A DNA stretch of 47,710 nt from Sporichthya brevicatena (GCF_039525035.1 NZ_BAAAHE010000005.1:25930-73639), one strand, 5' to 3'. Shown: positions 1 to 47,710, counted from the stretch's first letter. Notes: generated by a model from the sequence alone, not told the origin. Translations and numbers: made by a program.

Positions 1-1368
1 CCGGGAGCGGTCGTCCCTGGCCCGGACGCGCCGGCGGCGGCGGGCGCAGGTCCCGCCACCGCCACCGACACCGCCGCCACCGGCGACAAGAACAAGCCGG
101 CGACGACCAACGGCACCGGCGCCACGGCCACCAAGCCGGCCGGCGGCACCGTCGCGTGCGGCGCGGCCGCACCGGCCGGCGGCAACGGCGGCGCCACCGA
201 CACCGGGGTCACCGAGACGACCATCAAGATCGGCGCCACGTTCTTCAACGGCGGCTTCCTGGACAAGTACAGCCAGGTGTCGCAGAACGCGGCCACCGCC
301 TACTTCAACTACATCAACAGCCAGGGCGGCATCTGCGGGCGCAAGATCGTCTACTCACCGTGCGACACCGGTGGGACCGCCGACGGCACGACTGGCTGCC
401 TGTCCAAGCTGGCCGCCCAGGACAAGGTCTTCATGATGGGCCCGTCCCTGGACTTCAACCTGGACATCGTTCAGAAGACCCTCGCCGACAACAAGCTGCC
501 GTGGGTCGGCTCCTCCGGTCTGTACGACCAGGAGTTCACCAGCCCGTGGATGTACCCGACGCAGATCCCCGGCGGTTCGGTCGGCGCTCTCATCACCACC
601 CACGCGGTGAAGGCGCTGGGCGTCAAGCGCATCGGCGTCTCGCAACTCCGTAACGGCGCCGGTCCGTCCTGCACCGGCAAGGTCAAGTCCACCGCCGAGG
701 CCCTCGGCGCCCAGATGGTGTCGGTCGCCCTCAACGCCGACGTGGAGACCAGCCTCGACAGCCAGGTCGCGGCGCTGAAGAACGCGAACGTCGACTCGGT
801 CCTGTTCTGCAACGACCCGGTGAACACGATCAAGTTCATCCAGGCCGCGCAGCGCACCGGTTGGAAGCCGATCTTCTTCGGCGGGTTCGTCGCCGCGGAC
901 GACGTGCCGCAGGCCGCCGGCGCGTACGGCAAGGGGATGTACGGCCTGACGATGTACGACTTCTACAAGTCGGACTCGCCGGGGCTGCGCGAGTACAAGA
1001 AGATCACCGAGTTCTACTACCCGAACACCTTCCACCACTTCTACGAGCAGGCCGCCTACGTCGGCGCCGCCGCGATCGTGGCCACGCTGAAGGCGATCGG
1101 CCCGAACGTGAACCGGACGGACTTCGTCAAGCAGCTCAAGACGATGCGCTCGTTCGACGTCGGTCTGGGCCTCAAGCTCGACTTCGCGAACCTGAAGAAC
1201 GCCGTGCCGAGCGGGATCATCCTCAAGGCCGACGACAACCTGCAGTGGCAGATCGAGTCCAAGCGGTTCTCGCCGTCCGGCGCGAAGTCCAGCGTCTCGG
1301 AGAGCGTGCGTCCGGACTTCGTCGCGGACCGGACGCGCAGCCGGATCGCCCCGGCGCGGACGTTCTGA
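1..1368 (+). CDS. Branched-chain-type ABC transporter substrate-binding protein (5' partial)
   Basis: The frame is open from the first base, so the true start and any signal peptide lie outside the window. The first ~60 residues are a Pro/Ala/Thr/Gly-rich linker, which probably follows a lipobox and tethers the domain to the membrane. The rest looks like a type-1 periplasmic-binding fold (Peripla_BP_6/LivK family): an early beta strand (TIKIGATF), then NYINSQGGICGRKI, where the ligand-binding lobe begins, and a FYEQAAYVGAAAIV helix late in the protein. It ends 3 bp before a LivH permease, so it is most likely the extracytoplasmic receptor of the transporter at 1372-4971. Liv-type receptors in actinobacterial catabolic loci often bind acids or steroid-like compounds rather than amino acids, so the ligand is unknown. 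Confidence 0.9.
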   Translation, partial: PGAVVPGPDAPAAAGAGPATATDTAATGDKNKPATTNGTGATATKPAGGTVACGAAAPAGGNGGATDTGVTETTIKIGATFFNGGFLDKYSQVSQNAATAYFNYINSQGGICGRKIVYSPCDTGGTADGTTGCLSKLAAQDKVFMMGPSLDFNLDIVQKTLADNKLPWVGSSGLYDQEFTSPWMYPTQIPGGSVGALITTHAVKALGVKRIGVSQLRNGAGPSCTGKVKSTAEALGAQMVSVALNADVETSLDSQVAALKNANVDSVLFCNDPVNTIKFIQAAQRTGWKPIFFGGFVAADDVPQAAGAYGKGMYGLTMYDFYKSDSPGLREYKKITEFYYPNTFHHFYEQAAYVGAAAIVATLKAIGPNVNRTDFVKQLKTMRSFDVGLGLKLDFANLKNAVPSGIILKADDNLQWQIESKRFSPSGAKSSVSESVRPDFVADRTRSRIAPARTF

Positions 1369-1371
1369 TCC

Positions 1372-2250
1372 ATGGAGAGGTTCTTCGGATATCTCGTCAC
1401 GGGGCTGGCCAACGGCGCGATCTTCGCCCTGGTCGCCCTCGGGGTGGTGGTGATCTACCGGGTCAGCCGGGTGATCAACCTCGCCCAGGGTGCGATCGGC
1501 GTCTTCTCGGCGTTCGTCTTCCACTACACGCTGATGGGTGACTTCGGCCTTCCGGTCGCGGTCGCCACGGCGGGGGCGATCCTCGTCGGAGCCGTGCTCG
1601 GCGCGGGCGTCGAGAAGTTCGTCGTCCGGCCCGTGCAGTCGCGCGGCGCCCTGGCCACCCTGACCGCGACCACGGGCGTCCTGCTGCTGCTCACCGAGCT
1701 GACCGTGCAGCTGTGGGGCCCGAACAACCCGGTCATCGCCTCGGTGTTCCCGGACACGCTCGTCCGTATCGGCAACACGGGTGTGACGGTCCACCAGATC
1801 GCCACGGCCGGGCTGGTCATCCTCCTGGCCGGCGGGCTGTACTGGATGCTCGCCAAGACCTGGGTGGGCGTGGGCATCACCGCCATCGCGCAGGACCCAG
1901 GTGCGGCCCGCATCGTCGGGCTGCCGGTCCGCTCCATCGTCACACTGACCTGGGCGATCGGTGGTGCGAGCGCCGCGCTGGCCGGCCTGATGTACATCCA
2001 CCTCAACAGCCTCGACCAGATCAGCCTGACGTTCGTGCTCATCTCCTCCCTGGTCGCGGCGGCCCTCGGCGGGTTCAACAGCCTGCCGCTGGCCGGCGCG
2101 GGTGGGGTCGCGGTCGGGCTGATCTTCAGCTTCGGCCAGGGGTACCAGCCGGTCGCGGGCATCGGTCAGCTGCTGGTCTTCATCGCGCTTCTGGGAGTGC
2201 TGCTGGTGCGGTCGAACAAGCCGACCCTCGACGTCGTTTCGGAGTTCTGA
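1372..2250 (+). CDS. Branched-chain-type ABC transporter permease, LivH family
   Basis: This 292-residue integral membrane protein has about eight hydrophobic helices. Its early NGAIFALVALGVVVIYRVSRVINLAQGAIG segment is shortened here to its key features: the GAIFALVALG helix and the INLAQG motif are characteristic of LivH. The conserved loop with IAQDPGAARIVGLPV before a central helix also fits. It would form half of the transmembrane channel with the LivM protein that follows. The ATG lies 3 bp after the binding-protein stop with no clear Shine-Dalgarno, which suggests translational coupling. Its TGA shares one base with the next ATG (TGATG). Confidence 0.93.
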   Translation: MERFFGYLVTGLANGAIFALVALGVVVIYRVSRVINLAQGAIGVFSAFVFHYTLMGDFGLPVAVATAGAILVGAVLGAGVEKFVVRPVQSRGALATLTATTGVLLLLTELTVQLWGPNNPVIASVFPDTLVRIGNTGVTVHQIATAGLVILLAGGLYWMLAKTWVGVGITAIAQDPGAARIVGLPVRSIVTLTWAIGGASAALAGLMYIHLNSLDQISLTFVLISSLVAAALGGFNSLPLAGAGGVAVGLIFSFGQGYQPVAGIGQLLVFIALLGVLLVRSNKPTLDVVSEF

Positions 2251-3416
2251 TGGCTCGGGGCGTGCAGGCGGGCGTGGACAGCGTCAGGGACGCCGCGGAT
2301 CGCGGCGTCCGGCTCACCGGCGGTCCGCTGATGAACGGCAAGGCCCTCGAAGTGGGCACGGTCGCGGCGATCGCGATCGGCCTGCTGGTCTGGCCGCTGC
2401 TGACTCCGCAGGTCGCGCACTTCTACGGGAGCCTGTCGGCGATCTACGCGTTGATCGGTCTCTCCCTGGTGATCCTCGTCGGGTGGACGGGCCAGATCAG
2501 TCTCGGGCACGCCGCCTTCGTCGGTGTCGGGTGTTACTTCGGCGCCAAGCTGCTGAACAACGACGTGCCCCTGGTTCTGACGGTCCCTCTGATCGGTCTC
2601 ATCGGTGCCGCCGTCAGCCTGATCCTCGGCATCCCGTCCCTGCGGCTTCGCGGCGTGTACTTCACGATCGCCACCCTGGCATTCGGCGCGGCGTGCCAGC
2701 AGTACTTCTTCACCCGGCCCGAGGTCCGGGGCATCGCCGCCGACCAGGTCCCGCGCGCGGACCTGGTGGGCATCCAGACGACCTCCGACCGCGGTCTGTA
2801 CTACGCGGTGCTGGTGGTCCTGGCGATCGCGCTGGTGCTGGCCTACAACACCCGGCGCACCGACGTGGGCCGCGTGCTGTTCGCCATCCGCGACTCCGAG
2901 CAGGCCGCTCAGGCCATGGCGATCAAGATCGCGCCGTACAAGATCGGCCTGTTCGCGGCGTCCGCCGCCCTGGCCTCGATCGCGGGTCTGTTCTACGGGA
3001 TGTTGTTCCAGGCGACGCCGGCCCCCGAGCAGTTCAGTGTCCTGCAGTCGCTGTTCTACCTGGCCATGCCGGTGCTCGGCGGCGCCGAGGCGCTGCTCGG
3101 TGCCCTGGTCGGCGGGACCTTCCTGGCGGTCGGTCAGCCACTGGTCAACATGTTCGACGTCCGACTGTTCCTGGTGACGTCGATCGCGCTGCTCCTCACC
3201 CTGCTCTCCGGCTACGACGGCGTCACGGGCGCCCTGAAGGCGGCGCGCAAGGCGGTGGCGGACGCGGTGCGCGGCGAACCGGTGCGCTACGGCTCGTTCG
3301 TCCCGCACGAGGAGGTCGACCACACCCCGCCGCGGGTGCACGCCACGGTCGCGGACAGCCCACCCCCGGTGGGCAGCGTGGTTCGGGTTCGGATCGTCCC
3401 GGGGGTGCGTTCATGA
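2250..3416 (+). CDS. Branched-chain-type ABC transporter permease, LivM family
   Basis: This 388-residue permease starts at the ATG overlapping the LivH stop by one base. An approximately 30-residue polar N-terminal extension precedes the first helix. The LivM hallmarks are the LSLVILVGWTGQISLGHAAFVGVG segment (given here by its key part, GWTGQISLGHAAF), SLRLRGVYFTIATLAFG, and a late ARxxDVGRVLFAIRDSEQAAQAMAI-type cytoplasmic loop that contacts the ATPase. About nine helices are visible, followed by a charged tail of ~50 residues. Its stop overlaps the start of the LivG ATPase (ATGA). It should pair with the LivH protein in a heterodimeric importer channel. Confidence 0.93.
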   Translation: MARGVQAGVDSVRDAADRGVRLTGGPLMNGKALEVGTVAAIAIGLLVWPLLTPQVAHFYGSLSAIYALIGLSLVILVGWTGQISLGHAAFVGVGCYFGAKLLNNDVPLVLTVPLIGLIGAAVSLILGIPSLRLRGVYFTIATLAFGAACQQYFFTRPEVRGIAADQVPRADLVGIQTTSDRGLYYAVLVVLAIALVLAYNTRRTDVGRVLFAIRDSEQAAQAMAIKIAPYKIGLFAASAALASIAGLFYGMLFQATPAPEQFSVLQSLFYLAMPVLGGAEALLGALVGGTFLAVGQPLVNMFDVRLFLVTSIALLLTLLSGYDGVTGALKAARKAVADAVRGEPVRYGSFVPHEEVDHTPPRVHATVADSPPPVGSVVRVRIVPGVRS

Positions 3417-4189
3417 GCGGCCATCTGATCGGCACCGGCCTGACGAAGCGTTACGCCGGCCTTGTCGCCAACGACAACGTCGACATCGAGGTCCGCCCCG
3501 GCGAGATCGTCGGGCTGATCGGCCCGAACGGCGCCGGCAAGACGACCTGCTTCAACTGCCTGACCGGGGCTCAGAAACTGACGTCGGGTTCGATCACGCT
3601 CGACGGCACGGACATCTCCTACATGCCCGCGAGCGAACGGGCGAAGATGGGCCTGGCCCGTACCTTCCAGCAGGCGCAGCTCTTCAAGCACCTGTCGGTG
3701 GAGGAGAACCTGCTGCTGGGGCGTCACCGGCACTACGGCGCCGGCGCGCTGCGCGCGGCGCTCGGCCTCGCCGGCGCCGCCGAGCGCAAGTCGCGCGGGA
3801 TCGTCCACTCGATCGCCGACCAGTGCGGGCTCACCGAGGTGCTCGACGCCCCCGTGGGCGACCTGCCCTTCGGCACGCAGCGCATGGTGGAGGTGGCACG
3901 GGCGATCGTGCTCGAACCCACGGTGCTGCTGGTCGACGAACCCGGCGCCGGGATGGACAGCACCGAATCGGCCTATTTCGGGGCACTTCTTGCCCGAATC
4001 AGCCGTGAACGGAACATGTCGGTGCTTATCATCGAGCACGATGTCGCGATGATCCTGTCGATCTGCGACCGAATCTACGTTCTGAATTTCGGCAAGTTGC
4101 TCGCCCAGGGCACCCCGGCCGACATCCGGGCCAACGCCGAGGTCCGCGCGGCGTACTTCGGGAGCACGGTCCAGGAGGCCGCCGTATGA
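3413..4189 (+). CDS. ABC transporter ATP-binding protein, LivG family
   Basis: This 258-residue ATPase has Walker [10 protein letters not shown] at about residues 37-45. The signature region is the atypical [14 protein letters not shown], where a canonical signature would read LSGGQ-like; this degenerate form is common in LivG. Walker B with its glutamate is LLVDEPGAG, followed by an H-loop histidine in IIEHDV. The family-specific GLARTFQQ Q-loop segment is also present. It hydrolyses ATP at the cytoplasmic face of the LivH/LivM channel. ATGA overlaps on both sides place it in the middle of the operon. Confidence 0.93.
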
Positions 4190-4971
4190 CCGTCACGTCG
4201 CACAGCGGTGCCGCCGGCTCCCCGGCTCCCGACGCGGTCAAGGCCGTGACCGGTGCGGCCAAGCCGATTCTCGCCACCCGCGCGCTCGATGTCGGGTACG
4301 GCAACGTGCTGGCCGTCCGCCGGCTCACCCTCCAGGTCAACCCCGGCGAGATCGTCGCCCTCCTCGGACCCAACGGCGCGGGGAAGACGTCCAGCCTTCG
4401 TGGCATCACCGGTCTGGTGCGGCCGCAGGCCGGGACCGTCAGCGTCAACGGCGTCCGGATCGACAACCGCGGCCCGGCCGTGGCGGTCCAGGCCGGTCTC
4501 GCCCACGTGCCCGAGGGCCGTCGGGTGTTCCCCGAGATGAGCGTGACGGACAACCTGCGCCTCGGTGCCTGGTCCGTCCGTCGCCGCTCGAAGGTCGTCG
4601 AGTCGCGCCTCGCCGACGCCTACGCGTTGTTCCCCCGGCTGGCCGAGCGCCGTGCGCAGCTCGCCGGGTCGATGTCCGGCGGCGAGCAGCAGATGCTCGC
4701 GATCGCCCGGGCGCTCATGAGTGACCCGAAGCTGCTGCTCATCGACGAGCTCAGCCTCGGTCTGTCCCCTCTCGTGGTCGACGAGATCCTGGCTCGGCTC
4801 CTGGAGCTGAACAAGGAAGGACTGTCCATCCTGCTCATCGAGCAGTTCGTGCACCGGGCCATGGACGTGTCGGACCGGGTGTACGTGTTGAAGAAGGGGC
4901 ACGTGGCGTTCAGCGGAACACCGGCGGCTGCCATCCGGATCGGCGCGGTCGAGGAGGCCTACCACCTATGA
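4186..4971 (+). CDS. ABC transporter ATP-binding protein, LivF family
   Basis: This 261-residue ATPase has Walker [10 protein letters not shown] at about residues 61-69, a canonical signature MSGGEQQ near residue 163, and Walker B LLIDELSLGL. The LSLGLSPLVVDEI stretch and the AHVPEGRRVFPEMSV segment mark LivF rather than LivG. A ~25-residue low-complexity N-terminal extension precedes the domain. It should form a heterodimer with the upstream LivG protein. The last four bases overlap the start of the surface-protein gene, which ties that protein to the transporter operon. Confidence 0.93.
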   Translation: MTVTSHSGAAGSPAPDAVKAVTGAAKPILATRALDVGYGNVLAVRRLTLQVNPGEIVALLGPNGAGKTSSLRGITGLVRPQAGTVSVNGVRIDNRGPAVAVQAGLAHVPEGRRVFPEMSVTDNLRLGAWSVRRRSKVVESRLADAYALFPRLAERRAQLAGSMSGGEQQMLAIARALMSDPKLLLIDELSLGLSPLVVDEILARLLELNKEGLSILLIEQFVHRAMDVSDRVYVLKKGHVAFSGTPAAAIRIGAVEEAYHL

Positions 4972-6317
4972 GCAACTCCAAGAGAGAGCTGCTGCGAAAG
5001 CGGGGAGTGCAGACCGCGGCGGGATCCACCGCCCTGCTGCTCACCGCCGGCGTGGCCTTCGTGTGGAACGCGCCCGCCCAGGCGGCGGCGCCGGACAACC
5101 TCGCGGTGTACTACGCCTCCAGCCACGCAACCCCGGCCAGCGTGGTCAGCCGCGTGCCGGTCGAGACGGCCGGCGGCTACCTCGTCTCGCAGAGCTCGGT
5201 CCAGATCGGCAAGTCCCAGGCCCTGGCCGCGGGCTTCACGTTGGGGCCGCTCGGCGACGCGTTCGTGGTGACCTCGGCGCCGCCCGGCACGATGACCCAG
5301 TTCCCGACCGTCGTCAACGCACAGGACCCGCCGTCGGAGACCGCCCCGCGGGAGAACTCGCTGTCCGCCGGCAACGGCGGCGGACCGAGCCTGGGCAGCG
5401 AGGTCCGCAACGCGGACCTGTCCGCGCGCGCCAGTGACAGCCCGAACGCGATCGCCAGTGCCTCCGGGCAGAGCATCACGACCCCGATCTACACCGCCGG
5501 CGCGGGCATCTCGCGCAGCGAGAGCGCGGTGCTGCCGGACGGCACCGTCCAGACCAAGGCGATCAGCTCGATCCAGAACCTGCTGATCGGCGGTCCGACC
5601 GGCCTGAAGATCGCGAACGTCGACAGCATCGCGACGATCACCATCGCGCCGGGCCAGAAGCCCGTCACGTCACTGCAGGTGCACACGTCCGGAGCGTCGT
5701 TGGCCGGCGTGCCGGTCATCCTCGACAAGAACGGCCTGCGGATCTCGGACCAGATTCCGCTCCCGGCCTCCAGCATCGCGGCCTTCAACGCGGGCGTGGC
5801 CGGACTGGCCGAGCAGGGCCTGACGTTCATCGCCTCGACCGAGACCGTGAAGGTGGGCGAGGGAGAGGCCGAGCTGTACGGGTCCGCCTTCACCTTCCGC
5901 TACAAGCTTCCGGACTCGGAGATCGAGCGGCCCAGTGACATCGGGTCGGACGAGACGTTCGAGTACGGCAAGGTCACCGCCAAGGTCACCTCGCGCGCCC
6001 TCGGTTCGCTCGGGGGTCCGGACCTGGCTCCGGCCGCGGGAACCGATGGTTCGGCGCTCCCGGGCGTCGACACCGCCACCGGTGCGGACCTGCCCGCCAC
6101 CGCCGATCTCGGCGCGCTGCCGTCGACGGTCGGCGCGCTGCCGACCGTGGGGATCGGTGCCACCGCCCCGGCCGCGGCGGCTCCGGCCGGCTTCACCCTC
6201 ACCCGGCCGAGCCTCGCCCCGGACCAGTTCAAGGACGGGTACCGCTACCTACTCCTGGCCGCCGCGCTGGGCATAGGCGGCCTGCTCGCCATCCTTCGCA
6301 AGCGCCCCATCGCATAG
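4968..6317 (+). CDS. Secreted, membrane-anchored surface protein (choice-of-anchor P-like)
   Basis: This 449-residue protein has a basic N-terminus and a hydrophobic signal segment ending in APAQA|A (about residues 1-40). A long Ser/Thr/Gly-rich, beta-type extracellular region follows, then an Ala/Pro-rich stretch and one C-terminal hydrophobic helix (~424-443) capped by RKRPIA. There is no LPXTG motif, so the anchor is a helix rather than sortase attachment. It resembles the choice-of-anchor P family and is a distant paralogue of the protein at 42637. Its ATG overlaps the LivF stop (ATGA), and a small two-helix protein follows. The pairing with a Liv importer at both window ends suggests a role in substrate capture or passage through the envelope. 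That role is inferred; no biochemical function is recognisable. Confidence 0.82.
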   Translation: MSNSKRELLRKRGVQTAAGSTALLLTAGVAFVWNAPAQAAAPDNLAVYYASSHATPASVVSRVPVETAGGYLVSQSSVQIGKSQALAAGFTLGPLGDAFVVTSAPPGTMTQFPTVVNAQDPPSETAPRENSLSAGNGGGPSLGSEVRNADLSARASDSPNAIASASGQSITTPIYTAGAGISRSESAVLPDGTVQTKAISSIQNLLIGGPTGLKIANVDSIATITIAPGQKPVTSLQVHTSGASLAGVPVILDKNGLRISDQIPLPASSIAAFNAGVAGLAEQGLTFIASTETVKVGEGEAELYGSAFTFRYKLPDSEIERPSDIGSDETFEYGKVTAKVTSRALGSLGGPDLAPAAGTDGSALPGVDTATGADLPATADLGALPSTVGALPTVGIGATAPAAAAPAGFTLTRPSLAPDQFKDGYRYLLLAAALGIGGLLAILRKRPIA

Positions 6318-6327
6318 AGGAGCACCG

Positions 6328-6711
6328 ATGAACGACCGCGTGAGAGATCTCCGACTGAAGGCACTCGCCGGTGCTCTGGTCCTGAGCGGCCTGGTCGGCG
6401 TGCTGCTCGGGTTCCTCGGTGTGCGCCGTAACGACGACATCGTGCTCCAGATGCCGTACCTCGCATCCGGTGGCCTGGTGGGGCTGGCGCTGATCGGCCT
6501 CGGCGCCATGGTGATGATCCAGCAGCAGATGCAGGAACAGAGCCGGCGGGCCGCGGCGGTGACCGAGTCGCTGGAGGAGTGGAAGGAGGCCGCGCTCGCG
6601 GAGCTGCGTGCCTTCCTCGAGAGTGCGACCCTCGAGCTCGAGGTCCGTAACCCGGCGCCCCCGCAGCGGCTGGAGAACAGCAGCGTCGGCGCCCCCCGGG
6701 ACCACGTCTAG
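6328..6711 (+). CDS. Small two-helix membrane protein, partner of the surface protein
   Basis: This 127-residue protein has two hydrophobic helices (roughly residues 12-32 and 44-66) joined by a short loop. A cytoplasmic, Glu/Gln-rich probable coiled coil (~68-110) and a polar tail follow. A GAGGAG ribosome-binding site overlaps the preceding stop and sits six bases before the ATG. The LLGFLGV...YLASGGLVGLALIG pattern recurs in the protein at 43988 (LGWIGV...VVSYGIGGLVLIIIG), which also directly follows a choice-of-anchor P protein. It is the last gene of the operon. The function is unknown; a scaffold or accessory subunit for the importer is a reasonable inference. Confidence 0.8.
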   Translation: MNDRVRDLRLKALAGALVLSGLVGVLLGFLGVRRNDDIVLQMPYLASGGLVGLALIGLGAMVMIQQQMQEQSRRAAAVTESLEEWKEAALAELRAFLESATLELEVRNPAPPQRLENSSVGAPRDHV

Positions 6712-8061: not shown

Positions 8062-9519
8062 TCAAAAGCCCTTCGGGAGGCCTGTGAAGCAGGTGAACCG
8101 GCCTCGGTTGGGGGCGGTGTAACCGTCCGGGGTGAGGTGCAGCAGCCCGTAGCAGTCGTTGGCGCTCGGGGGAGCGGCGCGGTGGAAGGTGATGGGTGGG
8201 GCGAGCCCGTCGAGCGTCTCGTTGCGGACCAGCCACAACCCGTCGAGCAGCAGCGCGCGGGTGAGGGTGCCGGCCCGCGCGCGGTCGGCGACGAGCGCGA
8301 ACGCCCGCTCGAACAGACGGCCCGAGGCGTACTGGCTGATGGTGTTCTGGTCGATCGAGGTGCCCGGCGCGAACCGTTCGTAGGCGGCGCGGAACGCGCG
8401 GACGCCGCCGCCCTCGGTCGCGAGGAACGGGACGTTGCCGGCACCGAGGAACGCACCGAGCTTGCGGACGTTGGGGTCGAGCGCGGCCTCGGCGGTGACC
8501 GCGAGCGCCGAGGTCGCGACGGCGGGGGTGTACCCGAGCGAGAGGCAGGACCGCGCGAAGCGTGCGTTGCCGGAGCCTTCGAGCGCGACGAAGACCGCGT
8601 CGGCGCCGGCGGACCTCAGGGCCTGGCACTCCGCCGTGTAGTCGGGTGAGGTGATCGAGGAGATCTTGCGCAGCACGACCTGCAGGCCCGAGGCCTTGGC
8701 CATCGCCTCGAAGTTCGCGTTGATCTGACCGCAGATCGCGGCCTCGACGCAGTAGACCAGACCGATCCGGTCCGAGCTCGCGGCCCGGGCGGCCTCCTTC
8801 ATCGCCCCGGCGTACGCGGCGAGCGGACCGCCGCCCTGCGGGAAGAACCAGGGGCTGGAGAACCACGGCGCCTCGATCAGGTCGCCGCCGACGAACGGCA
8901 CCTCGTTCTGCTCGGCGAACCGCTTCGCGGCGGCGAAGGTCGTCGGCACCCCGGCGCCGACGATCGCGATCGCCTTCTTGTTGTTCACGAGCTCGTTGAG
9001 GTTCGACGTCACGCGCGCGGGGTCGGCGGCGTCGTCCATCTGGTAGAGCTGCACCGGGTGGCACTGCACCCCGCCGCGGGCGTTGACGTCGCGCAGCCAG
9101 AGCGCGAGCCCGGTGCGCATGTTGAAGTTCGAGGCGCCGATGATCCCCGAGCTCGGGGCGGTCTGGCCGATGACCACCGGCGCCAGCGCTTTCGCACACG
9201 TCGCCCGCACTGGAGATGACATCTCTTGTGCAGGTTCCTCGCGGCGGGTCGGCGGCGCCGCAGCGGTCGCCGGGCCCGCGGCGGTCGCGGTGGCCGCGGG
9301 CCGGTCGGTGGCCGGTGCGCCGCCGGTCGTCGCGGGGACCGCGACGTCCGGGTCGGCCGGCAGGGGCGCGCTCGCGTGCACCGGGGCCGCGGCCGCGGCG
9401 CGCATGGCGGCGGTCCCGTCGGCGGCCTCGATCGCGTCGGTGGACATCCGCGTCCCGCACGCCCCGAGTGTCAGGCTCAGGCTCAGAACACCGACAAGAG
9501 CGGAGATCTGACGCCTCAT
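8062..9519 (-). CDS. Orphan ABC-type substrate-binding lipoprotein
   Basis: This 485-residue protein has a signal peptide with lipobox LGAC (Cys21). A ~90-residue Ala/Pro/Thr-rich linker follows, then a type-1 periplasmic-binding domain beginning at PVVIGQTAPSSGI (Peripla_BP_6 family). A conserved DGLWLVRNETLDGL-like C-terminal segment is visible. Its ATG overlaps the stop of the DUF7064/7065-like gene (ATGA), so it is co-translated with that gene and the phosphotransferase rather than with a permease. It may serve one of the Liv importers in the window or act as a sensor for the PucR protein downstream. A dispersed 25-bp palindrome (9207-9231) lies in frame in the linker and encodes about AQEMSSPV. 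Confidence 0.9.
   Translation of the reverse strand: MRRQISALVGVLSLSLTLGACGTRMSTDAIEAADGTAAMRAAAAAPVHASAPLPADPDVAVPATTGGAPATDRPAATATAAGPATAAAPPTRREEPAQEMSSPVRATCAKALAPVVIGQTAPSSGIIGASNFNMRTGLALWLRDVNARGGVQCHPVQLYQMDDAADPARVTSNLNELVNNKKAIAIVGAGVPTTFAAAKRFAEQNEVPFVGGDLIEAPWFSSPWFFPQGGGPLAAYAGAMKEAARAASSDRIGLVYCVEAAICGQINANFEAMAKASGLQVVLRKISSITSPDYTAECQALRSAGADAVFVALEGSGNARFARSCLSLGYTPAVATSALAVTAEAALDPNVRKLGAFLGAGNVPFLATEGGGVRAFRAAYERFAPGTSIDQNTISQYASGRLFERAFALVADRARAGTLTRALLLDGLWLVRNETLDGLAPPITFHRAAPPSANDCYGLLHLTPDGYTAPNRGRFTCFTGLPKGF
9207..9231 (-). repeat. Dispersed 25-bp palindrome, copy 1 (inside a coding sequence)
   Basis: This copy is the reverse complement of three identical copies at 18404, 18440 and 26774. 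It has a GAGATG-T-CATCTC core flanked two bases out by GCAC and GTGC. It lies in frame in the linker of the binding lipoprotein, just before the folded domain. The adjacent CCT on one side is shared with the copies at 18404 and 18440. Confidence 0.85.
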
Positions 9520-29052: not shown

Positions 29053-29078
29053 CGGCCGGTGTGACGCACTCGGGTTAG

Positions 29079-29091
29079 GTCCATTCTGGAC
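29079..29091. promoter_or_regulatory. Candidate operator before the nitronate-monooxygenase-like gene
   Basis: GTCCA-TTC-TGGAC is a perfect 13-bp inverted repeat in the 88-bp gap upstream of the flavoprotein at 29141. It is the only clear symmetry there. No -10/-35 pair could be assigned with confidence. Confidence 0.35.
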
Positions 29092-29140
29092 GGTTGTGGT
29101 TCGATCAGGGGTTACCAGCGAGTAGAAGCGAGGAGAGCCC

Positions 29141-30112: not shown

Positions 30113-30144
30113 TTGCCACCCGCCGCACGCGGTTCACACCGTGA

Positions 30145-30175
30145 GGGGCACAGCACCGGAGACGTGCTGTGCCCC
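30145..30175 (+). terminator. Hairpin terminator after the NMO-like gene
   Basis: A perfect 12-bp stem GGGGCACAGCAC pairs with GTGCTGTGCCCC around a seven-base loop. It is followed immediately by TTGACG, which serves as the -35 box of the next promoter. There is no long U-tract. Confidence 0.75.
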
Positions 30176-30209
30176 TTGACGATTCGCCTGAAATCTATAC
30201 CCTGTAGGT
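30176..30209 (+). promoter_or_regulatory. Promoter with operator CCTGTAGGT before the Rieske oxygenase
   Basis: A -35 hexamer TTGACG (30176-30181) is separated by 16 bases from TACCCT (30198-30203), a TANNNT -10. The operator-like CCTGTAGGT (30201-30209) overlaps the -10 and the start point. The same nonamer overlaps the start point of the promoter at 39778. Confidence 0.55.
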
Positions 30210-30248
30210 AACGCACACAGGTATGGACTGGTCAGTGGCTGTGTGCTT

Positions 30249-30268: not shown

Positions 30269-30296
30269 GTCCGAGGAGCTCGCTACAGGAGTCGGG

Positions 30297-31559: not shown

Positions 31560-31602
31560 CCTGCCGACGCGACGTCAGAAACGTTGAGGTAGAACCACTT
31601 CG

Positions 31603-32190: not shown

Positions 32191-32214
32191 CGCCCGTTCG
32201 TCGAAGCGGTGCGG

Positions 32215-39898: not shown

Positions 39899-41014
39899 GT
39901 GACGATCACGTCGAGGGCAGCTGTCCTCTTCGAAGCACCGGGGGAATGGGAGATCGTCGAGGTTCAGGTCGACGAACCCAAGGAGCACGAGGTGCTCGTC
40001 CGCTACGTGACCGCGGGTCTCTGCCACTCCGACGACCACGTCGCCAAGGGTGACGTGCCGATGGCGCACCTGCCGATGTGCGGTGGCCACGAGGGCGCCG
40101 GCATCGTCGAGGCCGTCGGCCCCGGTGTCCGCAACCTGCAGCCCGGTGACCACATCATCGCGGCGTTCATCCCGAGCTGTGGCCACTGTCGCTGGTGTGC
40201 GAGCGGGATGCAGAACCTCTGCGACAACGGCGCCTTCATGATGATGGGCACCCAGCTCGACGGCACGTTCCGCATGCACCACAAGGGTCAGGACGTCGCG
40301 CAGACCTCCCTGGTCTCCACGTTCTCCGAGTACGCCGTCATCCCCGAGTGGGGGGCGCTGAAGATCGACAAGGACCTGCCGCTGCAGTCCGTCGCGCTCC
40401 TCGGCTGCGGTGTCCCCACCGGGTGGGGTTCGGCCGTCAACGCCGCGCAGGTCCGCCCCGGTGACGTCGTCATCGTCATGGGCACCGGCGGCATCGGCAT
40501 CAACGCCGTCCAGGGTGCGAAGCACGCGGGTGCGGCGCGAATCATCGCCGTCGACCCGGTGCAGTTCAAGCGCGAGAGCGCACTGAAGCTCGGCGCCACC
40601 GACGCGGTCGAGAACATGACTCAGGCGACCGACCTCGCGCAGTCCCTGACGAACGGTCAGGGCGCTGACTCGGCCATCGTCACCGTCGGTGTCGCCAAGG
40701 GCGAGCACGTCGGCCAGGCCTTCGCCTCGGTCCGCAAGGCCGGCACCGTCGTGCTCACCGCGGTCTCGAACATCGACGAGTCGAACATCCCGGTCAATCT
40801 CTTCGAGATGGCCATGTTCCAGAAGCGGATCCAGGGCGCGCTGTTCGGGATGATGTCGCCGCAGGCCGCGATTCCGCACTTCTTGAACCTGTACAAGCAG
40901 GGCCAGCTGCACCTCGACGAGCTCGTCTCGAAGCGGTACCCGCTGGAGCAGATCAACACTGCGTACGCCGACATGCACGCGGGCACCAACATCCGTGGAG
41001 TGGTGGACTTCTGA
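39899..41014 (+). CDS. Zinc-dependent alcohol dehydrogenase, NDMA-dependent type
   Basis: This 371-residue enzyme uses a GTG start. The catalytic-zinc segment is GLCHSDDH with GGHEGAG, and the structural-zinc loop has CGHCRWCASGMQNLC. CGVPTGWGSAVNAA and VMGTGGIGINAVQGAKHAGA form the nucleotide-binding part. The length and these segments match the NDMA-dependent alcohol dehydrogenases (Rxyl_3153/TIGR03989 family), which are linked to mycofactocin as redox carrier. It ends by sharing one base with the ligase start. An alcohol from P450 or Rieske oxidation is a likely substrate. Confidence 0.93.
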   Translation: MTITSRAAVLFEAPGEWEIVEVQVDEPKEHEVLVRYVTAGLCHSDDHVAKGDVPMAHLPMCGGHEGAGIVEAVGPGVRNLQPGDHIIAAFIPSCGHCRWCASGMQNLCDNGAFMMMGTQLDGTFRMHHKGQDVAQTSLVSTFSEYAVIPEWGALKIDKDLPLQSVALLGCGVPTGWGSAVNAAQVRPGDVVIVMGTGGIGINAVQGAKHAGAARIIAVDPVQFKRESALKLGATDAVENMTQATDLAQSLTNGQGADSAIVTVGVAKGEHVGQAFASVRKAGTVVLTAVSNIDESNIPVNLFEMAMFQKRIQGALFGMMSPQAAIPHFLNLYKQGQLHLDELVSKRYPLEQINTAYADMHAGTNIRGVVDF

Positions 41015-42540
41015 TGGCAGCGACCCTGGTCTCGGCGCTCCGGTGGTGGGCGCGTACCCGCGGCGACGACGCGGCGTGGATCCTCGAGGACGACACGGTC
41101 TCCTTCCGTACCGCGCAGGACTGGACCTCCCGCATCGGTGAGGACCTCGTCGCCCGCGGCGTGCAGCCGGGCGACCGCGTCGGCGTCCTCGGCGGCAACT
41201 CGCTCGAGTGGGCCGCGGCCGCTCTCGGCGTCCTCAAGGCCGGCGGCGTCGTGGTTCCGCTCAACCCGCGTCTGGTCGGGCCGGAGCTGCACAAGATCCT
41301 CTCGACCGCCGGCGCCACGGCCGTGATCCACGAGCCCGCCTTCGAGCCGGTGCTCAAGGAGGTCGTCGGGATGGGGCTGGAGCTCCAGACCATCGCCCTC
41401 GACGCCGTCGCTGACGTCCGCCCCGAGGCGGGCGCGGACCCGAACGACTTCGTCGTCGACGTCGACCCCGAGGCCCCGGCCATGGTGATCTTCACCAGCG
41501 GCTCGACCGGCCTGTCCAAGGGCGTCATCTGCACGAACCGTCAGCTGCTCTCGATCGCCTTCGAGGCCAGCCTGACCGAGGAGGGCATGCGGCCGGGCGG
41601 TACGACCCTGCTCGTCCTCCCGCTCGCCTTCACGCCGGGTCTCGTCTGGGGCCTGTCGCTCTCGGCGATCCTCGGCACCACGCTCGTCGTGGAGAAGACG
41701 CTCGACCCGACCCGCGCCGTCGACCTGATCGAGAAGCACAAGGTCGGCGCCCTGTTCGGTGTCCCGCTCATCTTCGGCGCCATCGCCTCGGCCCCGAACT
41801 TCGCGAGCGCCGACCTCTCCTCGCTGACGTCCGCGTTCACCGGCGGCGCCCCCGTGCCCGTGCCGCTGCTCCAGGCCTGGGGCAGCAAGGGTGTGAAGCT
41901 CCGTCAGATCTACGGCATGACCGAGGCCGGCGGCGTCGCGACCGCCACCCTCGTCAAGGACGCCGACCAGCACCCCGACTCGTGCGGCCACGGCTCGGTC
42001 TTCACCGAGTTCCGCATCGTCGACGCCGAGGGCAACCCGTGTGCGCCCGGCGAGAACGGCGAGATCCTGCTCCGCGGCCCGGGCATGACGCCGGGCTACT
42101 GGGGCGACGAGGAGACCACCGCGCAGGCCATCCGCGACGGCTGGATCCACAGCGGCGACCTCGGCACCACGACCGAGGACGGTCGGCTCAAGTTCGTCGA
42201 CCGGCTCAAGGACCTGATCATCACCGGCGGCATCAACGTCTCCCCGGTGGAGATCGAGCAGGTCATCGCGGCGATCCCCGGTGTGACCGAGGTCGCGGTG
42301 ATCAGTGCGCCGGACGAGAAGTTCGGTGAGACGCCGGCTGCGATCCTCTTCGCGGACGGTTCGGTGACCGTGGAAGCGGTCGTCGAGCGGTGCAACGAGC
42401 AGCTGTCCAGCTACAAGGTCCCGCGGTACGTCGTGCTCTCCGAGGAGCCGCTCGCCAAGCTCCCCAACGGGAAGCTCGCCAAGGTCGCCATCCGCGAGCA
42501 GTACGCGGATGTCGCAACGACGCATCCAAAGGTTCGCTAA
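41014..42540 (+). CDS. AMP-forming acyl-CoA synthetase (class I adenylate-forming)
   Basis: This 508-residue ligase has the P-loop VIFTSGSTGLSKG, the YGMTEAGG adenylate motif, GWIHSGDLGT and the C-terminal hinge region DRLKDLIITGGINVSPVEIE. The C-terminal LPNGKLAKVAIRE lysine, which is needed for adenylation, is present. It should convert a carboxylic acid, probably the product of the aldehyde dehydrogenase, to its CoA thioester. It is co-translated with the alcohol dehydrogenase (TGATG). Confidence 0.94.
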   Translation: MAATLVSALRWWARTRGDDAAWILEDDTVSFRTAQDWTSRIGEDLVARGVQPGDRVGVLGGNSLEWAAAALGVLKAGGVVVPLNPRLVGPELHKILSTAGATAVIHEPAFEPVLKEVVGMGLELQTIALDAVADVRPEAGADPNDFVVDVDPEAPAMVIFTSGSTGLSKGVICTNRQLLSIAFEASLTEEGMRPGGTTLLVLPLAFTPGLVWGLSLSAILGTTLVVEKTLDPTRAVDLIEKHKVGALFGVPLIFGAIASAPNFASADLSSLTSAFTGGAPVPVPLLQAWGSKGVKLRQIYGMTEAGGVATATLVKDADQHPDSCGHGSVFTEFRIVDAEGNPCAPGENGEILLRGPGMTPGYWGDEETTAQAIRDGWIHSGDLGTTTEDGRLKFVDRLKDLIITGGINVSPVEIEQVIAAIPGVTEVAVISAPDEKFGETPAAILFADGSVTVEAVVERCNEQLSSYKVPRYVVLSEEPLAKLPNGKLAKVAIREQYADVATTHPKVR

Positions 42541-42636: not shown

Positions 42637-43923
42637 ATGAGCGGTAAGCACAAGCGAGCCAAGTTCGCCGGAAGCCGGCGGCGGGTCGCGGCGACGGCGA
42701 TTGCCACGGTGCTCACCCCGGCGGCTGCCACGTTCGGCGCCCCGGCCGCCTCCGCCGCCCCGGCGGAGGAGGACCCGTTCGGTGCGGTATCGGACTTCGG
42801 TTCGGGCACGTACGCCGGCAAGGCGTCCGCGGACGGTGTCCGTGCGACGGTCGCGCTGCGTGACTACCTGATCATCGAGGACTTCGTCGACGGCGGCGGT
42901 CCGACCGCTCAGGCGGCGCTGGACAGCCTCGGGGAGAGCACGGCGTACTCCTCGCTCCCGTACCCGGGTGCGACCGGTGTGGCCCTGCCCGGTCTGGTCT
43001 CGACGCTGTCGGGCAAGTCGGTTCCCTCGTACCCGTTCTACGTGTCGAGCCAGAACCCCTCGAACCCGACCGAGACGGTCCGTCAGCCCGGCTACCTGAT
43101 GCACGCCGAGTCGGCGGCCGAGCGGTCCGCCGCGCAGACCCAGCTGGGCTCGTCGACGAACACCGGTGAGGAGCTGGGCACCTTCGCCAACGCGAGCGTG
43201 GACTTCGTCGGGGGGACGATCACCTCGCTCGGTGAGGCGCGCACCCGCCTGGCGGTCGGGCCGGTGCAGCTCAACGGTGCCTTCTCCCGCGCGGTCGTGA
43301 CGGTCGCCCCGGGCGGCAAGATCACCAAGTCCTCGACGTTCGAGACCGCGCTGCGCATCGGCAACACCGTCATCGGCGTGACCGACAAGGGTCTGGTCGT
43401 CGGCGACCAGAACGCTCCGCTGGACCCGGCCCGCCAGGTCGAGCAGGCCGTCACCCAGGCCGGCGTGACGGTCAAGTTCCTCCCGGCGGTCGAGACCGCG
43501 GACTCGATCCTGTCCTCCGGGCTGGAGATCAGCCTGGTCCAGGCGATCCCGAACGTCGGCACCGCCAAGGGCGTCGTCAGCTACATCATCGGCCGCACGT
43601 TCGCGCAGGCGACCGCGTCCGGCTTCACCTCGGGTGCGACCGGGACCGGCACGCCGCTCCCGGCGAACGAGACCCCCGCGGCCCCGGCCGCTCCGGTGGC
43701 GGGTGTGCCGTCGCTCGGTGACGTCGACGCGGGTGCCCTCCCGGAGGCCCTGCCCGGCGCGCTCCCCGGCGCCGTCGCCGGCGGTGCTCCGGTGCCGACC
43801 GCGAACTTCGTGAACGCCGGCATCGCCCAGCCCAAGCTGACCGAGCTGGAGTTCTACCCGATCCTCGCCGCGATCGTTCCGATCCTGCTGCTGGCGGCCG
43901 TCGGTGCCCGCCGCTTCGTGTAG
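42637..43923 (+). CDS. Secreted, membrane-anchored surface protein (choice-of-anchor P-like)
   Basis: This 428-residue protein has a basic start and signal peptide (cleavage near ASA|AP, about residue 40). A Ser/Thr/Gly-rich beta-type domain follows, then an Ala/Pro-rich region and a C-terminal helix (about 408-424) ending in ARRFV. It shares layout and segments (VLPDG-like/VDFVGG..., KITKSSTFET versus KPVTSLQVHT, GLRI/GLVV strands) with the protein at 4968. It is followed by two small membrane proteins and a Liv importer, the mirror of the first cluster. Its partners suggest a surface component of the uptake system. Confidence 0.82.
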   Translation: MSGKHKRAKFAGSRRRVAATAIATVLTPAAATFGAPAASAAPAEEDPFGAVSDFGSGTYAGKASADGVRATVALRDYLIIEDFVDGGGPTAQAALDSLGESTAYSSLPYPGATGVALPGLVSTLSGKSVPSYPFYVSSQNPSNPTETVRQPGYLMHAESAAERSAAQTQLGSSTNTGEELGTFANASVDFVGGTITSLGEARTRLAVGPVQLNGAFSRAVVTVAPGGKITKSSTFETALRIGNTVIGVTDKGLVVGDQNAPLDPARQVEQAVTQAGVTVKFLPAVETADSILSSGLEISLVQAIPNVGTAKGVVSYIIGRTFAQATASGFTSGATGTGTPLPANETPAAPAAPVAGVPSLGDVDAGALPEALPGALPGAVAGGAPVPTANFVNAGIAQPKLTELEFYPILAAIVPILLLAAVGARRFV

Positions 43924-43987: not shown

Positions 43988-44347
43988 ATGGAATTCGTGA
44001 AGTGGTGCCGCCTGCAGTGGGACCGGGCCTTGTCCGTGGCGGCGATCCTCGCCGGTGTTGTTCTCGTCATCCTGGGCTGGATCGGCGTCTCTGACACCCC
44101 GTACATCGCCAAGCAGGTGCCGTTCGTCGTCTCGTACGGCATCGGTGGCCTCGTGCTGATCATCATCGGCTCGACGCTGTGGCTGTCGGCGGACATGAAC
44201 GACGAGTGGCGCACGCTCGACCGCCTCGAAGAGGCGCAGCGGGCCAACATCGTCGACCGTTCTGAGCTGACGGCTCTTCAGGACCGTCTGCGCGCGCTGG
44301 AGAGCCGCGCGGACGCCCGGGCGTCCGAGCTCAGCCGTTCCCACTGA
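43988..44347 (+). CDS. Small two-helix membrane protein
   Basis: This 119-residue protein has helices at about residues 15-35 and 43-65, and a polar, probable coiled-coil tail (EWRTLDRLEEAQRAN, LQDRLRALESRADARA). It is a paralogue of the protein at 6328. TGAGGA lies nine bases before the ATG. Its stop overlaps the next start (TGATG). Confidence 0.8.
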   Translation: MEFVKWCRLQWDRALSVAAILAGVVLVILGWIGVSDTPYIAKQVPFVVSYGIGGLVLIIIGSTLWLSADMNDEWRTLDRLEEAQRANIVDRSELTALQDRLRALESRADARASELSRSH

Positions 44348-44664
44348 TGGCTGGGAGCACGGTTCTGTCGCGTAGCGCGGGAGCCGGAAGCCGGGCCGCC
44401 GGACGGCGCCGGCCGGGTTCACCGCCCAGCCTGATCGCCGCGGCGATCCCGGGTGCGCTCGGTGTGCTGCTTCTGATCCTGGGCTGGATCTCGGTCAGCG
44501 GTGAAGCCGCGTTCGACGATCAGCAGTCCGGCCTGAACATCGCGATCCTCGGCGCGCTCGTCGTGCTGATCGGGTGCGGGTTCTACCTGTTCATGTTCCG
44601 CCGTCGCATCCAGCGCCGCATGCGTGCGGTGCGGAGCTCGGTCTTCGGGGAGGAGGAGGACTGA
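44347..44664 (+). CDS. Small two-helix membrane protein
   Basis: This 105-residue protein has an Arg/Gly-rich N-terminus, helices at about 29-49 and 60-82 and a basic tail (RRRIQRRMRAVR). The LLLILGWISVSGE segment resembles the LGWIGVSD of its neighbour, so the two probably arose by duplication. Its stop overlaps the permease ATG (TGATG), which ties the pair to the transporter. Confidence 0.8.
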   Translation: MAGSTVLSRSAGAGSRAAGRRRPGSPPSLIAAAIPGALGVLLLILGWISVSGEAAFDDQQSGLNIAILGALVVLIGCGFYLFMFRRRIQRRMRAVRSSVFGEEED

Positions 44665-46676
44665 TGGACACCTGGTTGCCCTTCGTCGTCATCGGCATCA
44701 CTGCCGGTGCGATCTACGGTCTGGCCGGCGTCGGCCTCGTCCTCACCTACCGGACCTCCGGCGTCTTCAACTTCGCCCACGGTGCGCTCGCGACCGCCGG
44801 CGTGTACCTGTTCTACGAGCTCTCGGTTCAGCGCTCCTGGCCATGGTGGCTGGCCGCGATCGTCTGTGTGGCAGTTTTCGGTGTGCTGATGGGCCTGGCG
44901 CTCGAACAGGTCGCGCGCCGGTTGGCCAAGGCACCCGCGTCGGTCATCGTCGTCGCGACCGTCGGCATCCTGCTGATCATTCAGGGCGCCGCCGCCGAGC
45001 GGTACGGCTCGCAGACGATCACCATCGACCAGTTCCTGCCGACGGACACCTTCGACATCTCCGTCTCGGTCGGTTACGACCAGCTGATCACCACGCTCGT
45101 GGGTGTCGCGATCGCCGCCGGCCTCGCGATCCTGCTCGGCCGGACCCGCATCGGTATCGCGATGCGCGGTGTGGTCGACGACTCGGACCTGATGGAGCTG
45201 ACCGGTCTGTCCGGCCCGGCGATCCGCCGGTTCGCCTGGATGATCGGTGGTTCGGTCGCGGTCGTCTCGGGCATCCTGCTCGCTCCGACCATCGGTCTGG
45301 ACCCGGTCCGTCTGACCTACCTGGTCGTCCAGGCCTTCGGTGCCGCGGCCATCGGTCGCTTCCGCAGCCTGCCGTGGACGTTCATCGGCGGTCTGATGAT
45401 CGGCGTCGCCGCCGCGATCGGGCAGAAGCTCGAGGCGGAGAACTCCGCGCTGCTGGGTCTGCCGGCCTCGGTGCCGTTCATCGCCCTGTTCGTGATGCTG
45501 ATCGTCGCCGGCAAGCGCGGTCTGCCCACCCCGGCGCCGGTGCGCCGTCAGCAGCCGGAGACCTTCACCCCGCTCCCGCTGGGTGTCCGTGCGGGCTTCG
45601 GCCTGGCGCTCGGCGTGCTGGTGATCGCCCTGCCGGGCCTGGTGGACGCCCGTCTGCCGGTCTTCACCCAGGCCGTCGGTCTGGCGATCATGTTCATGTC
45701 GCTGTCACTGCTGGTGAAGATGTCGGCGCAGGTTTCGCTGTGTCAGGCCGCCTTCGTCGCCGTCGGTGCGGTCGCGTTCTCCCGCCTGTCGACCGAGGCG
45801 CACCTGCCCTGGCTGCTGGCGCTGATCGGCGCGGGTCTGATCACGGTCCCGCTCGGCATCATCGTCGCGCTGCCGGCGGTTCGGCTGGCCGGTATCTACC
45901 TGGCGCTGGCGACGTTCGCGTTCGGCCTGCTGATGGAGAACCTGATCTACCGCAAGGGGATCATGTTCCCCCAGGGTGGTGTGCGCGAGGCTCCGCGGCC
46001 GAACATCCCCGGGTCGGGGGAGGCCAGCGACAAGGAGTTCTTCTACATCGCGGTCGCGATCCTGGTTGCGGTCATCGTCGCCGTCATCGTGCTGCAGCGC
46101 TCGCGTCTGGGTCGCCTGCTCCGCGCCATGGCGGACTCGCCGCTGGCGCTGTCGACCTACGGCACCGGCACCACGACCACGCTCATGCTGCTGTTCGCGA
46201 TTTCGGCGTTCTTCGCCGGCATCGCCGGTGGCGTGCTCGCGGTCGGCACCGGCGCCGCCGGTCCGGGTGGTCTCGGGTCGCTGCAGTCGCTGCTGTGGGT
46301 CGCGATCATCTCGATCACCGGGTCGAACCTGATCCGGTCCTCGATCATCGCGGCGCTGCTGCTGGCGGTCATGCCCTCCTACGTGACCGAGCTGAACCCG
46401 AACTACCAGTCGATCATGTTCGGCGTCGCCGCCGTCCTGGTCGCGCTGCTCGCCGCCAAGGAGTTCGACCCGGTCGCGTGGATCCGCGAGAACCTCGCCA
46501 CCTCCGCCCGCATCGGCACCCGGGGCCCGATCCCGAGCCGGGCCGCGGACGGCGGTTGGCGCCGGGCCGCGAGCTCGCGCCAGCCCGTTGCGGCGGCGGC
46601 CGCGCGGCGGGCTGCCGGTGAGGGCGAGGACGACGACCAGCCGATCGAGCTCGCATCGACGGGAGGCTCCCGATGA
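44664..46676 (+). CDS. Fused LivH-LivM branched-chain-type ABC permease
   Basis: This 670-residue membrane protein joins a LivH half (about 1-290, GAIYGLAGVGLVLTYRTSGVFNFAHGALA, key FNFAHG) to a LivM half (about 305-610, SAQVSLCQAAFVAVG and VRLAGIYLALATFAFG). An Arg/Ala-rich cytoplasmic tail follows. The cluster at 1372-3416 keeps the two as separate genes. Two ATPases follow, but no binding-protein gene lies within the window part of this cluster. The N-terminal methionine is the ATG overlapping the upstream stop. Confidence 0.93.
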   Translation: MDTWLPFVVIGITAGAIYGLAGVGLVLTYRTSGVFNFAHGALATAGVYLFYELSVQRSWPWWLAAIVCVAVFGVLMGLALEQVARRLAKAPASVIVVATVGILLIIQGAAAERYGSQTITIDQFLPTDTFDISVSVGYDQLITTLVGVAIAAGLAILLGRTRIGIAMRGVVDDSDLMELTGLSGPAIRRFAWMIGGSVAVVSGILLAPTIGLDPVRLTYLVVQAFGAAAIGRFRSLPWTFIGGLMIGVAAAIGQKLEAENSALLGLPASVPFIALFVMLIVAGKRGLPTPAPVRRQQPETFTPLPLGVRAGFGLALGVLVIALPGLVDARLPVFTQAVGLAIMFMSLSLLVKMSAQVSLCQAAFVAVGAVAFSRLSTEAHLPWLLALIGAGLITVPLGIIVALPAVRLAGIYLALATFAFGLLMENLIYRKGIMFPQGGVREAPRPNIPGSGEASDKEFFYIAVAILVAVIVAVIVLQRSRLGRLLRAMADSPLALSTYGTGTTTTLMLLFAISAFFAGIAGGVLAVGTGAAGPGGLGSLQSLLWVAIISITGSNLIRSSIIAALLLAVMPSYVTELNPNYQSIMFGVAAVLVALLAAKEFDPVAWIRENLATSARIGTRGPIPSRAADGGWRRAASSRQPVAAAAARRAAGEGEDDDQPIELASTGGSR

Positions 46677-47572
46677 GCTCACCGAGCGCCGACACCACGG
46701 CAACCCTGCAGATCCGTGAGCGCAAGGATCTGCCCGGGCTGAACATCGACGGTCTGACGATCCGGTTCGGTGGCCACACCGCGGTGAACCACCTGACGAT
46801 GAGCGCCCCGATCGGTCAGGTCACCGGCCTGATCGGACCGAACGGCGCCGGCAAGTCGACGACGTTCAACGCCTGCTCGGGTTCGCTCACCCCGGCGGAG
46901 GGTTCGATCACCTTCGACGGCGTCGACCTGACGAAGGCTCCGGAGTCCAAGCGGGCGCACCTGGGCATCGGGCGCACCTTCCAGCGGATCGAGCTCTTCG
47001 ACTCCCTGACGGTGCGTGAGAACGTCCAGCTCGGCCGGGAGGCCCGGCTCGCCGGCACCTCGCCGATCACCCAGCTCCTGCCCCGCAAGGGCGAGCGGGC
47101 GATGGTCGCGGAGGCGGCCGAGCGTGCCATGGAGCAGTGCGGGATCCTCGACGTCGCCGGTGCCCGCGCCGGTCGGCTCTCGACCGGTCAGCGCCGCCTC
47201 GTCGAGCTCGCCCGCGCGCTGGCCGGGGACTTCCGGCTGCTGCTCCTGGACGAGCCGTCCTCGGGTCTGGACCACTCCGAGAGTGATGCGTTCACCGCGC
47301 TGCTCCGTCAGGTGGTCGCCGAGAACGGGATCGGCATCCTCATCGTCGAGCACGACATGAACGTCATCTCGGGGCTCTGCGACTACGCCTACGTCCTCGA
47401 CTTCGGCCAGCTGATCTTCGAGGGTCTGCCTCGCGAGGTCCTGAGCTCCGAGATCGTCCGCAAGGCCTACCTCGGTACGGAGGATCTCGGCATCTCCGAC
47501 GCCGACGAGACGGACCCGCCCGCCGATCCGGGCAACCTCAACGGAACGGGGCCGCACCGTGACCACGCCTGA
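46673..47572 (+). CDS. ABC transporter ATP-binding protein, LivG family
   Basis: This 299-residue ATPase has Walker A GPNGAGKST at about 55-63, signature LSTGQRRLVELARA and Walker B LLLLDEPSSGLD. The H-loop is in IVEHDM, and the LivG-type GIGRTFQRIELF Q-loop is present. It starts within the permease stop (ATGA). A ~30-residue N-terminal extension and a ~30-residue tail extend it beyond the usual LivG length. It should pair with the LivF protein that follows. Confidence 0.93.
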   Translation: MSSPSADTTATLQIRERKDLPGLNIDGLTIRFGGHTAVNHLTMSAPIGQVTGLIGPNGAGKSTTFNACSGSLTPAEGSITFDGVDLTKAPESKRAHLGIGRTFQRIELFDSLTVRENVQLGREARLAGTSPITQLLPRKGERAMVAEAAERAMEQCGILDVAGARAGRLSTGQRRLVELARALAGDFRLLLLDEPSSGLDHSESDAFTALLRQVVAENGIGILIVEHDMNVISGLCDYAYVLDFGQLIFEGLPREVLSSEIVRKAYLGTEDLGISDADETDPPADPGNLNGTGPHRDHA

Positions 47573-47710
47573 CGCGAACTCCACCGCGCGCCCCATCCTC
47601 GAGGCGCGCGGGGTGACCTCCGGCTACGGCGAGAAGACCGTCGTCCGCAACATGAGCCTGACGCTGCCGGCCGGCGCGTCGATGGCGATCCTGGGCCCGA
47701 ACGGCGCGGG
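47559..47710 (+). CDS. ABC transporter ATP-binding protein, LivF family (3' partial)
   Basis: The GTG at 47559 overlaps the LivG stop by 14 bases. About 50 residues are visible, ending in LGPNGAG, the start of Walker A. The GYGEKTVVRNMSLTL strand before it fits LivF. The rest lies beyond the window. Confidence 0.85.
   Translation, partial: MTTPDANSTARPILEARGVTSGYGEKTVVRNMSLTLPAGASMAILGPNGA

Follow-up and report, generated by a model that had tools for sequence, protein, structure and literature searches.

Surface proteins and small two-helix membrane proteins linked to Liv-type importer genes in Sporichthya and other actinobacteria

Introduction

Liv-type (HAAT) importers, such as LivFGHMJ, UrtABCDE and CouPSTU of Rhodopseudomonas palustris, are built from permeases of the family PF02653, ATPases and a Peripla_BP_6 binding protein. 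Mce4 and the related Mce systems are many-component actinobacterial ABC importers for hydrophobic substrates, which comprise extracytoplasmic and membrane accessory proteins as well. Small membrane subunits whose genes accompany those of a large permease and its binding protein also occur in the TRAP transporters (DctQ) and the tripartite tricarboxylate transporters (TctB). Within the Liv type, CouP is a LivK-family protein for hydrophobic aromatic acids and is encoded beside its own catabolic genes (PMC3610893). Mce4 is restricted to mycolic-acid bacteria, and other steroid uptake systems are unidentified (PMC4810484).

Here we describe gene cassettes of the actinobacterium Sporichthya brevicatena, two of which lie in a window of 47,710 nucleotides (the whole stretch of DNA that was analysed). 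They share the PF02653 permease, the ATPases and the Peripla_BP_6 protein with the Liv/HAAT importers. In contrast to these, the permease halves are mostly fused, a surface protein on a tether is added together with one or two hairpin proteins, and about 32 copies are present in one genome. The nearest functional analogue is Mce4; however, the cassettes are not members of the Mce group, as their permease and binding protein are Liv-type and they do not contain an MCE domain (MlaD, PF02470), for which all six matches in the genome are on contig C19. The six MCE-domain proteins encoded there (G000:C19:2009-7508) form the sole Mce cluster of the genome, apart from the Liv cassettes. Like DctQ and TctB, the small membrane proteins are encoded beside the permease, but the core is that of an ABC transporter. 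No earlier description of a Liv accessory module was found in the open-access literature, to which the search was confined, subscription papers being outside its scope.

Results

Two Liv-type operons in the window

The features of both operons and the nearest catabolic neighbours of operon 2 are listed in Table 1. Operon 1 (1-6711) has the gene order binding protein, LivH, LivM, LivG, LivF, surface protein and small protein. LivF is coupled to the surface protein gene by an ATGA overlap, and a gap of 10 nt precedes the small protein gene. In operon 2, which runs from 42637 to the window end, the surface protein gene comes first and is followed by the genes for the small proteins SM1 and SM2, the fused LivHM permease, LivG and LivF; TGATG overlaps connect SM1 to SM2 and SM2 to the permease. 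For both operons the initial annotation had described the places of the surface and small proteins, including the overlaps, and its coordinates were confirmed (4968-6711 following LivF in operon 1). Contig C5 ends where the window does.

Table 1. Features of the two Liv-type operons and catabolic neighbours of operon 2 (window coordinates)
Feature	Position	Strand	Evidence
Liv-type substrate-binding protein (SBP), operon 1	1..1368	+	PF13458 Peripla_BP_6, E 2.9e-44; start upstream of window
LivH-type permease, operon 1	1372..2250	+	PF02653; UrtB/LivH models under cut-off
LivM-type permease, operon 1	2250..3416	+	PF02653 at C5:28362-29129, E 2.3e-37
LivG ATPase, operon 1	3413..4189	+	HMM made from window LivG
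LivF ATPase, operon 1	4186..4971	+	NCBIfam LivF 206 bits, equivalog cut-off 441
Surface protein, operon 1	4968..6317	+	translation; orthologues; profile-level homology to other surface proteins
Small two-helix membrane protein, operon 1	6328..6711	+	without zinc-like tail
NDMA-dependent alcohol dehydrogenase (Rxyl_3153 family)	39899..41014	+	TIGR03989, 547 bits, over cut-off
Acyl-CoA ligase (fatty-acid--CoA ligase type)	41014..42540	+	catabolic neighbour of operon 2
Surface protein, operon 2	42637..43923	+	AlphaFold2 models
Small two-helix membrane protein A (SM1)	43988..44347	+	QWDR ... SADxxDEW family; alignment
Small two-helix membrane protein B (SM2)	44347..44664	+	without HxxxC...CxxC tail in this copy
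Fused LivH-LivM permease	44664..46676	+	two PF02653 domains; translation
LivG ATPase, operon 2	46673..47572	+	window-LivG HMM; ATGA overlap with permease
LivF ATPase, operon 2	47559..47710	+	HMM; cut off by contig end

Judged by their sequences, both operons can be assigned to the Liv/HAAT-type ABC importers. Each encodes two PF02653 permease domains scoring over the cut-off together with LivG and LivF ATPases, and the Peripla_BP_6 binding protein is found in operon 1 and, for operon 2, after LivF at the orthologous locus (L134) of the congener G398. In operon 1, LivF (Table 1) and LivH (47 vs 379 bits) stay under the NCBIfam equivalog cut-offs of the canonical branched-chain amino acid transporter LivFGHMJ. 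Operon 1 is kept across the family with unfused permeases, and its surface protein has orthologues with identical neighbours in 4/4 other family genomes. Its convergent neighbours on the minus strand (8062-11548) encode an orphan binding protein of the Peripla_BP_6 family, an APH/ecdysteroid-kinase-like protein and a DUF7064 protein, relatives of which recur close to other cassettes.

The surface proteins

According to its translation, the surface protein of operon 1 consists of a signal peptide, an ectodomain, a Pro/Ala-rich linker, a C-terminal membrane helix and a KRP tail. In that of operon 2 the signal peptide (about 1-41) is followed by a beta domain (55-330), a linker (about 335-403) and a membrane helix (407-427). 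AlphaFold2 gave a pLDDT of 74.8 for the full-length protein and a confident fold for the beta domain alone (pLDDT 87.9, pTM 0.86), which is rich in Ala, Gly and Ser. The Pro/Ala/Gly-rich linker of approximately 70 residues is disordered in the model. The two window proteins were previously called paralogous, which is correct in the sense of remote homology: BLASTP fails to give a convincing match (E 0.49), whereas the profile comparison by hhalign aligns about 180-200 residues with 97.5-97.6% probability (E 3e-12 to 8e-12).

No convincing PDB fold match was found for the ectodomain, which is not proof of a new fold, and sequence searches gave no solved relative. In structure comparison by VIA the best match has a Z of 7.0. 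The best Foldseek matches are exclusively outer-membrane beta-barrels with an rmsd of about 17-23 A and a TM of about 0.2, values that indicate a generic beta-hairpin resemblance and not homology to porins. Over 66 members of the surface protein family Pfam yielded scattered single matches only, and over the same 66 in aligned form the only NCBIfam family to appear was choice-of-anchor P (3/66). In the genome the model of that family (NF040603) gives weak matches to six surface proteins, located in their ectodomains, one of which is just above the cut-off (27.9 vs 27 bits); it matches neither of the window pair even at E 1. The one clear choice-of-anchor P protein of the genome is encoded amid housekeeping genes, without Liv genes. 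The surface protein is thus a likely, though at most remote, relative of this family. Sortase anchoring was considered as well and rejected, as neither window translation contains an LPXTG motif and the LPXTG models match neither of them.

The small membrane proteins

The small proteins had been described as related to each other, and sequence comparison bears this out, both across the operons (6328-6711 against 43988-44347, E 2e-12) and between A and B of operon 2 (E 3e-4). By its alignment SM1 is a hairpin of two helices that begins with a conserved QWDR and has a SADxxDEW motif past helix 2. Searches for a known domain in the small proteins gave weak scattered matches only (PhaG/MnhG, TctB, holin, SLATT), the one to TctB being found in 2/26 SM1 members below the threshold (E 0.015).

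The SM2 proteins of the genome mostly end in a zinc-like H-x3-C...C-x2-C tail, which is present in 26/30 (25 recognised by pattern, the L033 copy by eye) and lacking in both window operons. Since the single small proteins at distant loci themselves bear this tail, SM1 and SM2 probably arose by a duplication after which the motif was retained on SM2. The same type of C-terminus was also seen on the small Liv-associated proteins of L100, L109, L114, L115 and L117.

Expansion in the Sporichthya genome

The genome has a size of 5.2 Mb and belongs to a small order; genes were called by a codon-score caller applied to genome segments. It encodes 88 PF02653 permease domains and 32 cassettes with a fused LivHM permease. 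The surface protein is present in all 32 and SM1 in 31 of these, two SM1 genes being taken from the SM1 search after the gene caller had overlooked them. Operon 1 of the window is an unfused cassette beyond the 32. With the operon 2 surface protein as query 26 places were found, and the search for SM1 revealed 31 strong copies, the one of operon 2 included, plus the small protein of operon 1. A chance pairing of the module with Liv genes is ruled out by these numbers of cassettes. Two cassettes at the ends of contigs C8 and C20 are almost identical; they may stem from a recent duplication or from a split in the assembly. The module is lacking at six Liv-type loci (L043, L044, L045, L046, L047 and L049), which have neither surface protein nor SM1, and a further fused permease (L053) is accompanied by a divergent surface protein only. 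The L017 cassette contains four binding-protein genes in succession.

Distribution and linkage to Liv genes

SM1 was found in 31/396 genomes of a phylum-wide sample. A GTDB-wide scan led to 43 loci, which belong to Frankiales, Acidimicrobiia and other MAGs, Streptomyces, Haloechinothrix, Nocardioides and Actinophytocola, and the closest cassettes among named relatives include those of a Sporichthya MAG. The number of SM1 matches is 32 in the congener and 14-19 in other family members.

In and outside the genome the module is almost invariably linked to Liv genes. The initial annotation proposed the co-occurrence check, in which the pair might have turned up mostly apart from Liv genes; instead, besides the 32 cassettes of the genome itself, the small protein has Liv genes no more than 3 kb away at 78/83 outside loci found by SM1. 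Four of the five unlinked loci (L074, L080, L083 and L088) end at a contig end beside the module. The fifth (L130, G398:C1:314723), which SM1 matches weakly, lies in the congener; 18 kb of sequence there contain no Liv gene, and it is the one apparent exception. The linkage spans distant actinobacterial groups and at least three gene orders, with the permease fused in some operons and unfused in others. Distant Liv operons share the order of operon 1, in which LivF is followed by a protein of 440-530 aa with a C-terminal membrane helix and by the small protein. Streptomyces genomes with a single cassette are represented by L065, L067 and L087. These three cassettes contain an extra gene immediately after that of the binding protein, whose product has an N-terminal hydrophobic stretch and 327-374 aa as called.

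Coupling and evolution of the cassettes

The genes of the module are tightly coupled to each other and to the permease. The spacing between surface protein and SM1 is 5 nt or less in 18/21 cases, and SM2 overlaps the permease in 25/27. In a tree built from the permeases of 77 cassettes, those that begin with the surface gene are perfectly separated from those that end with it (100% SH-aLRT), so that the position changed only once on the tree, compared with 13 changes in shuffles. Eight cassettes sampled from the congener each pair with a cassette of the genome on short branches, while the paralogues are far apart. The cassettes are thus old and have been kept one to one between the congeners, which suggests separate substrates; being old and retained, they are presumably distinct in function. 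Distances of the permease correlate with those of the surface protein (Mantel r 0.89) and the binding protein (0.85), as do those of the latter two with each other (0.82). The surface protein thus diverges in step with the other two as closely as these do with each other; correlations of this kind are in part expected because operon genes are co-inherited. The correlations of LivF are lower (0.59-0.69), and the short SM1 scarcely correlates with permease and surface protein (0.11-0.13).

Catabolic context

Non-transport genes were counted in segments of 20 kb around the cassettes for families such as acyl-CoA dehydrogenases, enoyl-CoA hydratases, acyl-CoA ligases, P450s, thiolases, SDRs and luciferase-like proteins. 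Catabolic genes make up 103/340 cassette neighbours (30%) and 9/304 genes of random segments (3%), an enrichment (odds ratio 14, p 1.6e-22) that is somewhat inflated because the catabolic HMMs were made from cassette neighbours. At Liv loci without the module the share is 9/74 (12%; p 0.0013 against the cassettes). Upstream of operon 2 (27817-39394) two P450s, a ferredoxin, a Rieske oxygenase, an SCP2 protein, a ChsH2-like protein and a lipid-transfer thiolase are encoded, and by its gene content this region is a dense catabolic island predicted to act on hydrophobic compounds. The hydrophobic substrate proposed beforehand thus gains indirect support from the genes around the cassettes. A classical steroid as substrate is unsupported: FadA5 models gave a match in the genome under the cut-off and none above it, and HsaC was not found, which is a weak test as the control genomes gave no HsaC match either.

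Discussion

On balance, and with modest confidence, we consider the surface protein and the hairpins to be dedicated accessory subunits of a distinct actinobacterial class of Liv-type (HAAT) importers, which is not of the Mce type and would deliver hydrophobic carbon sources to CoA-dependent catabolism. In such a complex the beta-rich ectodomain, held on its disordered tether of about 70 residues, would sit within the thick cell wall or outside it, while the single C-terminal helix would fix the protein next to the permease. There it could catch a poorly soluble substrate or present it to the Liv-type binding protein; a lipid-binding precedent is missing for the surface protein because its fold has no confident match. 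The SM1 and SM2 hairpins would form a bridge in the membrane between the helix of the surface protein and the LivHM permease, with the putative zinc-binding tail, which belongs to SM2 or, in distant relatives, to their only small protein, on the cytoplasmic side. LivHM, LivG and LivF would import the substrate, which the adjoining ligases, dehydrogenases and P450s would then process.

The distant kinship to choice-of-anchor P, whose family name refers to anchoring, the long disordered tether with a single membrane anchor and a beta domain that is rich in Ala, Gly and Ser and has no recognised binding fold would also suit an adhesion or wall-structural factor, which is co-expressed with the importer and passes no substrate. 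Such a factor might hold the cells to an insoluble substrate or keep the wall open around the transporter, the small proteins serving only to stabilise or assemble the permease. We regard either form as unlikely. A divergent paralogue beside nearly every permease, which tracks the divergence of permease and binding protein, better suits a substrate-linked role, and 32 matched copies would be superfluous for a general adhesin. The tail on most SM2 proteins and on the distant single small proteins, predicted to be cytoplasmic, may in turn point to a regulatory module, in which the surface protein would sense the substrate and the hairpin bearing the zinc-like tail would pass a signal to the ATPases or a regulator and so gate transport. 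However, the tail is missing from some copies, those of both window operons among them, no signalling domain was found and no dedicated regulator was seen conserved beside all cassettes; we therefore hold regulation to be somewhat less probable still than adhesion. That the genes are passengers, travelling with the Liv operons by shared duplication and having no common function, would account through co-inheritance for part of the distance correlation. It is very improbable in view of the overlapping stop and start codons and of a linkage that holds across distant groups, both permease forms and the different gene orders.

The present annotation of the core as a 'branched-chain amino acid transporter' is probably misleading for this class of cassettes. 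A wider reading, which we put forward only tentatively, is that non-mycolic actinobacteria possess a general and so far unnamed importer for hydrophobic nutrients, the counterpart of the Mce systems of mycolic-acid bacteria. It would combine a Liv core with a wall-spanning receptor, made of a tethered beta domain, and hairpin adaptors with a cytoplasmic zinc knuckle, and would exist in about 32 substrate-specific copies in Sporichthya. Encoded among genes for the breakdown of fat-like or ring-shaped compounds, the surface and small proteins may be the parts that had been missing for their uptake. Should they prove to be importer subunits, the approximately 32 transporters, many of them encoded beside their own catabolic genes, would offer ready predictions of their substrates.
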